A stretch of DNA of 20,397 nt, from IMG/VR virus record IMGVR_UViG_3300014711_000010, positions 1-20,397 of that record. One strand, given 5' to 3'. Below, piece after piece: positions 5,186-19,236 of the stretch (its first letter is position 1; every line of letters begins with the position of its first letter). The DNA is from a virus. Under the pieces are notes generated by a model. The model did not search any database and had not been told where the DNA came from. It was given only the letters and a program-made list of their open reading frames with translations. The position numbers and the translations under genes are program-made.

Positions 5186-6217
5186 ATGGGCCTGGGTACA
5201 AATCAAGTCACCACCGCAGTTGCCAATAACTTCATTCCCGAGTTGTGGAGTGATGAGGTCATTGCCGTTTACAAACAAAAATTGGTTCTTGCCAATCTGG
5301 TCACGAAGATCAGCTTCAAGGGCAAGAAGGGCGATACGCTGCACATTCCAGTGCCCGCCCGTGGTTCCGCATCCTCCAAGGCTGCGAACACCCAAGTTAC
5401 TCTGATCGCTTCGACCAACAGCACCGTTGACGTGCTGATCGACAAGCACTACGAGTACAGCAAGCTGTACGAAGACATTGCTGAAATGCAAGCTCTGTCG
5501 TCCATGCGTAAGTTCTACACCGAAGACGCTGGCTACGCTCTGGCGAAGCAAGTGGATCAGCACCTGCACCTGTTGGGCGCTGGCTTCAACGGTGGCACGA
5601 TCTCTGCTGCTGCCGCCTACGAAAAGGCCGTGATCGGTGGCGACGGTTCCACCAACTTCTCGGGCGCAACCCCCGGTAACGGTACGGCTCTGACCGATGC
5701 CGGTATCCGTCGCATGATCCAGACTCTGGAAGATGCTGACCTGAACAGCGATGAACTGTCTCTGGTCATTCCTCCCGTCGAGTCCAACGTGCTGCGCGGT
5801 ATCGCTCGCTTCACCGAGCAAGCGTTCCGTGGTGACGGTTCCACCATCTCCACCGGTCGCTTGGGCAACCTGTACGGTGTGGAAGTGTTCACCTCCACCA
5901 ACTGCCCGTGGATTCACGTTAACAGCGTGACCTCCACTCAGTCCGTCACCTTCTCGTCCACTGCCCCCACCGGTGCCGCATACGTTGACGAATTGGGCAA
6001 CACCGTGGACTGGTCCACTTCGACCCCCACCGATACCAAGTACCGCGCTGGCATGATCTTGCACAAGGATGCAATGGCCCACGCTGAACAGCAAGGTATC
6101 CGTAGCCAGTCGCAGTACAAGCAAGAGTACCTCGGTACTCTGGTGACTTCCGACACCATCTACGGTGTGAAGGAACTGCGCGATTACGCTGCTCTGGCGT
6201 TCGTTGTACCCGCCTAA
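5186..6217 (+). CDS. Major capsid protein (probable HK97 fold)
   Basis: A 343-residue protein forming the phage head shell. The N-terminal region NFIPELWSDEVIAVYKQKLV (about 15-34), then the KGKKGDTLHIPVP segment and DVLIDKHYEYSKLYEDI, match the opening helix, E-loop and beta regions of phage coat proteins that I know from podovirus-like genomes. Length fits the family. AGGAG lies 6 nt before ATG 5186. Codon choice is strongly biased (many CTG, AAG, ACC, GGT and TCC), stronger than in flanking genes, as expected for the most abundant protein. It follows the scaffold by 22 nt and is closed by a UUCG hairpin at 6223-6242. No protease or decoration domain is fused to it. Confidence 0.9.
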   Translation: MGLGTNQVTTAVANNFIPELWSDEVIAVYKQKLVLANLVTKISFKGKKGDTLHIPVPARGSASSKAANTQVTLIASTNSTVDVLIDKHYEYSKLYEDIAEMQALSSMRKFYTEDAGYALAKQVDQHLHLLGAGFNGGTISAAAAYEKAVIGGDGSTNFSGATPGNGTALTDAGIRRMIQTLEDADLNSDELSLVIPPVESNVLRGIARFTEQAFRGDGSTISTGRLGNLYGVEVFTSTNCPWIHVNSVTSTQSVTFSSTAPTGAAYVDELGNTVDWSTSTPTDTKYRAGMILHKDAMAHAEQQGIRSQSQYKQEYLGTLVTSDTIYGVKELRDYAALAFVVPA

Positions 6218-17927: not shown

Positions 17928-18314
17928 TTGAATCCCCCCGAATTCAATCTACTCGATTTCGTTAAGGACTTCCTCTGGGCACCACTCCTAGCACTCATAG
18001 CTTGGGCGTGGAACCGTAACGAGAAGGCCCATGATGACCTGCGTACCAACCATGAGAAGCTCTCTGACTCAACCCATACAGGACATTCAACGCTGAATGA
18101 CAAGATCATGGAGTACGTTGATAGTCAGATCAATGAAGTCAAAGGTGAGCAGCGGCGTAGAAGTGACAAGCTGGCAGATCACATCGAGAAGCTGTTTGCC
18201 AATGCCGAGCTAGACCGTAAGGAATTCAGCAAAGTGATGGCTGACCACCGTGAGGACTCATACAAGCGGCACATTGAACTGCTTCATGCAATCAACTCAA
18301 AGGCTGACAAATGA
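17928..18314 (+). CDS. Single-TM protein with long helix, lysis-cassette
   Basis: A 128-residue protein that starts at TTG 17928; GGAG sits 7 nt upstream and no ATG is better placed. Residues about 15-28 (DFLWAPLLALIAWAW) form a short membrane segment preceded by acidic residues and followed by an Arg/Lys-bearing region, then a charged helix of ~90 residues. The layout recalls i-spanins or XhlA-like lysis accessory proteins. The charge pattern, positive after the helix, argues for a cytoplasmic C-terminus, which does not fit a classical i-spanin. The stop overlaps the DUF5675-like gene as ATGA. The lysis role is inferred from place. Confidence 0.62.
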   Translation: MNPPEFNLLDFVKDFLWAPLLALIAWAWNRNEKAHDDLRTNHEKLSDSTHTGHSTLNDKIMEYVDSQINEVKGEQRRRSDKLADHIEKLFANAELDRKEFSKVMADHREDSYKRHIELLHAINSKADK

Positions 18315-18724
18315 AACTCCAAGTTGTCCGATTCATGTGTGGAGCTACCTGCACCATTGGTGAGCTACTGGTAGATGGTGAGCATGAGTGTTGGACACTG
18401 GAAGATGTAGTAAGACCTGATGGTGTCAAAATTTACGGGGAAACGGCGATACCTTATGGAACTTATTCTGTGGTTGTTACTTTTAGTAATCGCTTTCAGC
18501 GCGATCTGCCTTTGCTTGTCGGTGTACCTAATTTTGAAGGAATTCGAATCCACCCAGGCAACACCGCCGCCGATACCCACGGCTGCATCCTCGTTGGACG
18601 AGGACACACAGGTTCCCGAGTTAGTGAATCAGTATTGGCATTCAATTCCCTGTTCCCCAAAATACGGGATGCCTTCAGACAGGGTCAAGAAATCACGATT
18701 ACCTTCAGCAGTGGAGATGCTTGA
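18311..18724 (+). CDS. DUF5675-like probable lysis enzyme
   Basis: A 137-residue protein with the DUF5675-type core: G73-IRIHPGN around 74-84, then DTHGCILVG at 88-96. His81, Asn84, Asp88, His90 and Cys92 form a plausible active-site cluster. The THGC tetrad also resembles the [ST]HGC motif of YkuD-type L,D-transpeptidases, though His81 is closer to Cys92 than in that family. AAAGG lies 7 nt before ATG 18311. Neighbours are a TM protein and a 3TM-holin-like protein, so a role in cleaving the cell wall is likely, and no other endolysin is visible. Codon use between ~18421 and 18545 is unusually T-rich at third positions, in the part overlapped by a second long frame. Confidence 0.72.
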   Translation: MKLQVVRFMCGATCTIGELLVDGEHECWTLEDVVRPDGVKIYGETAIPYGTYSVVVTFSNRFQRDLPLLVGVPNFEGIRIHPGNTAADTHGCILVGRGHTGSRVSESVLAFNSLFPKIRDAFRQGQEITITFSSGDA

Positions 18725-18731
18725 TGAATGA
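18420..18731 (+). CDS. Candidate nested membrane protein (alternate frame)
   Basis: A 103-codon frame from ATG 18420 (or 91 codons from ATG 18456) lies within the DUF5675-like gene in another frame and runs 7 nt past its stop into the next gene. The predicted product has a basic N-terminus (KFTGKRRYLM), one strong membrane helix at about 14-38 (ELILWLLLLVIAFSAICLCL, then SVYLIL) and a soluble tail with ATPPPIPTAA. This topology, and nested coding in a lysis cassette, recall spanin pairs such as Rz/Rz1, but the lipobox is not canonical. Neither start has a convincing ribosome binding site. It could be a chance frame; kept as a low-confidence candidate. Confidence 0.3.
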   Translation: MVSKFTGKRRYLMELILWLLLLVIAFSAICLCLSVYLILKEFESTQATPPPIPTAASSLDEDTQVPELVNQYWHSIPCSPKYGMPSDRVKKSRLPSAVEMLDE

Positions 18732-19236
18732 CTTACTTAAGACTATTGCTAGCGGTCTTGGGACTGCTATTGCTGGCCCTCTGGGCGGCGTTGCTGCTGG
18801 TTTCATTGCTGACAAGTTGGGGCTTGAAACACGGACTGTTGAGGCCGTTACGGAAGCTCTTAATTCCAACAAACTCACACCGGAACAGGTGAGTCAGATC
18901 AAACTGGCTGAACTTGAGTTTCAGAAGTTCCTGAAGCAAAACAGCATTGACCTTGAAAAGATTGCAGCGGAAGACCGTGGTAGTGCGCGTGACTTGCTCA
19001 AAGCCACTGGCTCCTACGTCCCCGCTATCCTGACTTTCGGTATCACCATCGGCTACTTTGTGGTGCTTCTCGGTATGATGCTCAAGCTATTCGCTGTAGC
19101 CGACAGTCAGGTCATGTTGATGATGTTGGGTCAGTTGGGGACTGCTTGGGGTGTGACCATTGCGTTTTGGTTTGGGACGACTCGTAATTCGCAGGAGAAA
19201 ACAAATCTACTGGCAAACTCCGCGCCTGCAAAATAG
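18724..19236 (+). CDS. 3TM-holin-like protein
   Basis: A 170-residue protein resembling the gene-transfer-agent/phage 3TM holin family. Residues 8-30 are Gly, Ala-rich and hydrophobic, followed by a charged amphipathic helix (41-82), the family-like EDRGSAR segment at 83-89, then two strong membrane helices at about 99-121 and 129-151. The start is ATG 18724, which overlaps the previous stop as TGATG with GGAG 7 nt upstream. It probably forms membrane lesions that release or activate the lysis enzyme. It is the last plus-strand gene, and its 3' part (19112-19236) is antisense to the 3' end of the MazG-like gene. Confidence 0.75.
   Translation: MNDLLKTIASGLGTAIAGPLGGVAAGFIADKLGLETRTVEAVTEALNSNKLTPEQVSQIKLAELEFQKFLKQNSIDLEKIAAEDRGSARDLLKATGSYVPAILTFGITIGYFVVLLGMMLKLFAVADSQVMLMMLGQLGTAWGVTIAFWFGTTRNSQEKTNLLANSAPAK

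Follow-up and report, generated by a model that had tools for sequence, protein, structure and literature searches.

Evidence for an overprinted single-pass membrane protein gene within a DUF5675 putative peptidase gene of phage lysis cassettes

Does the DUF5675-like gene in the lysis region of this phage carry a second, nested gene, and is the product of that gene a spanin, as the initial annotation had proposed? We analysed a window of 20,397 nucleotides (the whole stretch of DNA considered here), which comes from a linear IMG/VR record of 23.6 kb that is possibly incomplete. The features on which the argument turns are the following.

17928..18314, plus strand: small protein upstream of the DUF5675 gene, with an N-terminal hydrophobic segment and a long polar helical region; 4-nt overlap with the DUF5675 start
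18311..18724, plus strand: DUF5675 host gene in the lysis region; 137-aa product, putatively a cell-wall peptidase; Pfam PF18925
18420..18731, plus strand: nested ORF at its maximal extent, 103 codons from ATG to TGA, +1 relative to the DUF5675 ORF; predicted single-pass membrane protein
18435..18437, plus strand: apparently lost start site, ACG, at host codon 42
18456..18731, plus strand: shorter nested form from ATG 18456; 91 aa, MELILWLLLL...
18462..18536, plus strand: predicted transmembrane segment LILWLLLLVIAFSAICLCLSVYLIL; KD19 3.04; host-frame codons T-ending
18657..18695, plus strand: conserved tail motif PKYGMPSDRVKKS; M84, P85, K90 and S92 almost invariant
18724..19236, plus strand: downstream membrane protein with a C-terminal TM region, holin-like by position and overlapping the 3′ end of the nested ORF

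The host protein matches Pfam PF18925 at 104.2 bits (gathering score 26.7; E=4.7e-30), which bears out its original labelling as DUF5675-like. Its AlphaFold2 model has a pLDDT of 91, and comparison of this model with the PDB returned no fold match with E<0.001. The peptidase assignment is putative: related crAss-like phage genes are annotated as L,D-carboxypeptidase/transpeptidase, and the motif HPGN..DTHGC is like that of L,D-transpeptidases/carboxypeptidases by eye only. No phage record contains a protein at 60% identity or above to the host protein, and a close relative was not found among cultured-phage records. The major capsid protein of the window (5186-6214) belongs to phrog_267, and its best phage-record matches are cyanophages, CHP58 and A-4L among them, at only 28–31% identity. 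A family match was not found for the small upstream protein; the downstream membrane protein matches phrog_1544 (E=7e-17; function unknown) and lies 3′ of DUF5675 in several relatives too.

The nested frame has the layout first described for it, a 103-codon frame with a basic N-terminus, a hydrophobic helix and a Pro-containing tail. It is open from 18420 to 18731 and ends 7 nt beyond the host-gene stop. The translation at maximal extent (MVSKFTGKRRYLMELILWLLLLVIAFSAICLCLSVYLILKEFESTQATPPPIPTAASSLDEDTQVPELVNQYWHSIPCSPKYGMPSDRVKKSRLPSAVEMLDE) has a basic N-terminal side (KFTGKRR), a hydrophobic segment of 25 residues (15–39) and a Pro-rich tail that contains PPPIP. AlphaFold2, given a shallow alignment of 22 sequences, predicts a single helix for residues 6–46, its membrane-spanning part at pLDDT >90, followed by a tail without structure (pLDDT about 50). 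Within this tail, homologues share the motif (Y/L/F)GMPSxx(V/A)KKS, which constrains codon choice in the host frame. No credible family match for the nested protein was found in Pfam, PHROGs, NCBIfam or PDB sequences, and tblastn of phage records with it gave zero matches. A single-sequence contig scan for a stand-alone homologue returned DUF5675 contigs only, and a search of the open literature found no mention of the nested gene. One match to phrog_5139, a family of unknown function, covers the tail only (L195:4125-4394; E=4e-4); only 1 of 22 members shows it, and we took it for chance.

We compared the window with a synonymous null in which host-gene codons were redrawn at the codon frequencies found elsewhere in the source (400–500 draws). 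The length of the open run alone is weak evidence (P=0.04–0.06). Peak 19-residue hydropathy is 3.04, compared with 1.34±0.44 under the null, and was equalled in 0–1 draws; open run and hydropathy jointly were equalled by zero draws. A shift to T-ending host codons over the membrane segment had been noticed from the sequence, and the counts agree: of the 26 helix codons in the host frame, 17 end in T, compared with 7.8 expected, and of the 55 in the tail 10 do so, compared with 17.6. Run length was rejected as a sole test, since frame +2 is also in excess over the synonymous null in 16 genes, where it lacks hydrophobicity (L207, L217, L156, L091, L095, L170 and ten others). This excess openness of frame +2 probably reflects local codon-usage effects.

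Scanning viral contigs and contigs from bacterial genomes yielded about 260 loci with 181 distinct DUF5675 genes. In a tree of these genes, made by a quick method from 136 columns, the window falls within a clade of 24 rows (SH-aLRT 95), some members of which are partial contigs, and a +1 frame with a membrane segment is present in 22 of the 24. The frame is open through both helix and tail in 21 clade genes and through the helix alone in one more. Labelled on the whole tree, the trait requires 6 changes, compared with 29.8 when labels are shuffled. The sister group (GC 0.62–0.70) is without the nested feature, and the trait was convincing in none of six phage records. Clade members originate from uncultivated phages, the sole member from the bacterial genome set being L082, a Geobacteraceae MAG contig. 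At some loci, for example L205, L188 and L224, a gene further 3′ resembles an integrase by eye. Hydropathy of the nested frame in 22 relatives lies ∼2–6 s.d. above synonymous-codon nulls, for which codon usage was taken from short loci. The initial annotation had proposed looking for alternate-frame stops in close homologues, and at 73–81% identity there are zero over the overlap. Among the exceptions in the clade, L192 has stops in the frame, L165 has lost the hydrophobicity and L203 keeps the helix with a stop in the tail; these three suggest that the nested gene can be lost or shortened.

Codon constraint in the overlap points in the same direction as the open frame. Outside the overlap, synonymous codon identity between sub-lineages is 0.443, compared with 0.364 at saturation, and therefore ∼12% of codon memory remains. 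A joint null over nine near-independent lineages, each with an open frame through codons 46–118 and a helix above KD 2.0, gives a product of ∼1e-22 at 12% codon retention and 1e-15 at 30%. Synonymous variation was expected to be reduced under dual coding, and codon conservation is indeed higher inside the overlap: the same-codon excess between lineages is 0.139 for the helix and 0.263 for tail codons 113–128, compared with 0.079 outside, and is absent from host codons 76–95. Third-position T (T3) is also enriched over the helix codons of the host frame, whose position 3 serves as position 2 for the nested frame; the mean z is +3.4 in 22 clade genes and −0.6 in the 147 other DUF5675 genes, and the clade has no such enrichment beyond the helix. 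The 22 genes were chosen partly by hydropathy, itself T3-dependent, and the resulting bias is small because they make up almost the whole clade. Single-change counts give dNN/dNS of 0.50 (0.27–0.93) for the overlap and 0.30 (0.17–0.53) for the tail in the +1 frame, compared with 1.49 and 2.88, respectively, in the +2 control frame; SS sites in the overlap were too few for dSN/dSS. Raw column conservation is elevated in both alternative frames and in a sister group, and since the +2 frame and the sister group also score high it is not decisive alone. Only the tail excess and the between-lineage codon comparison separate the nested frame from these controls.

The relatives also indicate where translation would begin. 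At host codon 42 the +1 frame has ATG or TTG in 17 of 22 relatives (6.7 expected). Nine of these have ATG, and in 9/9 a correctly placed Shine–Dalgarno sequence (GGAG, GAGG or AGGA) stands upstream, where about 2.9 are expected under the same null. The codon-42 start has apparently been lost in the window, which reads ACG. Other starts in the window are ATG 18456 (host codon 49), which is common to close relatives, and ATG 18420; the start-codon survey found no good Shine–Dalgarno sequence upstream of either, so that the early reservation about poor ribosome binding sites holds for both. Because the conserved start is gone and the remaining ones are without good Shine–Dalgarno sequences, translation is less certain in the window than in its relatives.

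Judged by this comparison of sequences, the nested ORF is almost certainly a real protein-coding gene. The opposite reading, a chance open frame set by host-protein composition and local codon preference, hydrophobic by accident and then inherited, is highly improbable. It draws on the weakness of run length in single genomes (P=0.04–0.1), on the 16 genes with a non-hydrophobic excess in the other frame and on the inflation of raw column conservation in both alternative frames, but it has to contend with a joint null of 1e-15 to 1e-22 despite codon retention, a T3 shift confined to the helix codons of the window clade, the enrichment of start codons and Shine–Dalgarno sequences at codon 42, and a dNN/dNS that is below 1 for the nested frame alone. 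Constraint on the RNA, from a structure or a regulatory site, with the open frame as a side effect, is barely credible: whereas the same-codon excess is visible as +2-frame conservation too, what results is a peptide with a membrane helix and a conserved motif, and +1-silent changes are preferred to +1-replacing ones. Programmed frameshifting into +1 would fuse the DUF5675 N terminus to the membrane tail and is compatible with L183, L184, L186 and L211, in which the +1 frame already opens close to the 5′ end of the gene. We regard it as very unlikely, as the +1 frame stops before codon 37 in the window and in many relatives, and the codon-42 ATG with its Shine–Dalgarno sequence in nine relatives argues for internal initiation.

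If the nested gene is real, its identity as a spanin can be weighed separately. Two-component spanins consist of an inner-membrane i-spanin and a lipobox-containing o-spanin, and u-spanins unite both (PMC6139136). A spanin component, such as an inner-membrane protein resembling i-spanins or an atypical o-spanin, would suit an embedded +1 gene in a lysis cassette, which is the classic Rz1 arrangement, as well as a product with its TM at the N terminus and Pro in its tail. The earlier observation that a spanin cannot be seen elsewhere also stands. We found no convincing lipobox protein in the cassette region of the window, no Rz-family match on the 23.6-kb contig (from a record that may be incomplete), and neither Rz nor a convincing lipobox protein near the cassette in the window or in relatives with the other layout. 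Against a spanin, the lipobox pattern [LVI][ASTVI][GAS]C occurs in 0/22 nested proteins, so that the reservation about a non-canonical lipobox is confirmed and the suggested lipoprotein check comes out negative. A lipoprotein reading of the sequence AICLC was rejected: its first Cys derives from host-frame Asp-Leu-Pro, and the aligned Cys is lost in L182, L186 and L211. Of i-spanin features, the N-terminal TMD is present and a structured, mainly helical domain in the periplasm is absent, the tail being disordered and without a coiled coil; nor does the protein resemble a u-spanin, its TM being N-terminal and the lipobox absent.

A spanin role is also opposed by eight relatives in which the nested ORF persists next to a full Rz/Rz1 pair. 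Here an Rz-like gene lies 3′ of the DUF5675 gene with its nested frame, and each such gene embeds a +1 lipoprotein (Rz1), at the following positions.

L202:4829-5299, Rz-like gene with embedded Rz1
L199:2996-3469, Rz-like gene with embedded Rz1
L205:5193-5678, Rz-like gene with embedded Rz1
L082:5652-6119, Rz-like gene with embedded Rz1
L188:4829-5302, Rz-like gene with embedded Rz1
L186:4562-5110, Rz-like gene with embedded Rz1
L190:5626-6072, Rz-like gene with embedded Rz1
L117:3864-4337, Rz-like gene with embedded Rz1

The Rz1 lipoboxes in the eight are LGAC, LSAC, LSGC, LTAC, LAAC, LQGC, VSGC and LVGC, and the six Rz proteins that were scanned all match Rz-like spanin PHROGs. These phages have their own Rz/Rz1 and therefore carry two embedded pairs each, close together, and the nested protein is not their spanin. 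The proposal of a nested spanin thus survives in one part: dual coding of a membrane protein is strongly supported by the codon, null and start tests, whereas spanin identity is opposed by the missing lipobox and by Rz/Rz1 in the eight relatives. We consider a spanin component quite improbable, the window and the relatives with the other layout being where such a role might still apply.

A different lysis function fits better. The nested protein is small, has at least one TMD and lies in a lysis cassette, as would a holin or antiholin; similarity to a known holin family was not found. Its gene and that of the enzyme are flanked upstream by a small membrane or coiled-coil protein and downstream by holin-like proteins. 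A holin-type lysis factor is the best fit because this is a small single-pass membrane protein from the mRNA of a putative enzyme. That the product is a membrane protein acting in lysis is probable, and that it is of the holin or antiholin type is possible at somewhat less than even likelihood, the other holin-like proteins already contained in the cassettes counting against it. Those same genes, and the absence of both holin and spanin similarity, favour a real membrane protein with a role outside lysis, such as superinfection exclusion or host takeover; a single TM with a disordered tail is common among small phage proteins of these kinds. Such a role is unlikely, however, given that the nested ORF accompanies DUF5675 and neighbouring late genes of the lysis region in both cassette layouts and that lysis is the better fit to late co-expression.

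Our preferred explanation, an overprinted single-pass inner-membrane lysis protein that is most likely holin- or antiholin-like, stands as a whole at about even likelihood. The overprinted gene would have arisen in the ancestor of one DUF5675 clade and been upheld by selection on its protein. Its product would be 85–105 residues long, with a short, mostly basic N terminus, one helix of 20–25 residues and a disordered Pro/Ser-rich tail that closes with the shared motif, and its topology would most simply be N-in/C-out in the inner membrane. Initiation at an internal start within the DUF5675 mRNA would make it along with the putative peptidase. The open frame, the helix, the conserved codon choices, the initiation signals in relatives and the place in the cassette are seen in the sequences; translation, topology and a role in lysis are inferred. 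In that role it may serve as an accessory holin, or as an antiholin that times membrane opening for release of the enzyme.

Several known systems share parts of this arrangement. Rz1 within Rz is the model of lambda-type embedded spanins (PMC6139136). As there, a small membrane-associated protein of the lysis cassette is encoded wholly or almost wholly by the +1 frame of a different gene in the lysis region; unlike there, the host gene encodes a DUF5675 putative peptidase rather than an i-spanin, the nested product has a predicted transmembrane anchor and no lipobox, and several genomes have both arrangements. Single-TM class III holins adjoin endolysin genes in KP34-like phages (PMC4411677). 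They resemble the nested protein in being small, in having one TM helix and in being encoded close to a gene for a cell-wall hydrolase, but they are separate genes of other sequence, and the nested protein has no holin-family match. A second product from within an endolysin gene is also made by Ms6 lysA (PMC3111421) and CTP1L (PMC4777826); these embedded products share the endolysin frame, whereas the nested ORF is in +1 and its product is unrelated to that of its host. By overprinting and layout, although with no claim of sequence similarity, the nested protein can be likened to protein E of phiX174. The E gene is an overprinted lysis gene within D, which encodes the scaffold protein of this small ssDNA phage, and E has an N-terminal TM helix and a soluble tail and blocks MraY.

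Standard annotation is blind to overlapping genes, of which the best example from dsDNA phages, Rz1 in Rz, also comes from lysis cassettes. The nested ORF and DUF5675 would form a second, unrelated overlapping pair with strong comparative evidence from two cassette layouts. It would offer a test case for the birth of membrane genes through overprinting, and suggests that seemingly simple phage lysis cassettes may hide further components.

A separate DUF5675 clade of lower GC (0.33–0.39; L169, L171–L175, L177, L180 and L181) has a +1 ORF of 73–92 codons with a membrane segment of KD 2.6–3.3 (null about 1.1). Its helix lies ∼12 codons further 3′ than that of the window clade, with a column excess of z 2.8–3.6. 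We tentatively suggest, as an unlikely reading, that DUF5675 was overprinted at least twice independently, in the window clade and in this AT-rich one, founding an unseen class of enzyme-tied lysis-control proteins. Were this true, such proteins would be hard-wired to the enzyme that they regulate. In the DUF5675 gene of a crAss-like phage, cr10_1 (L267), the corresponding region holds a short hydrophobic stretch in +1 (38 codons, KD 2.55, P=0.014).
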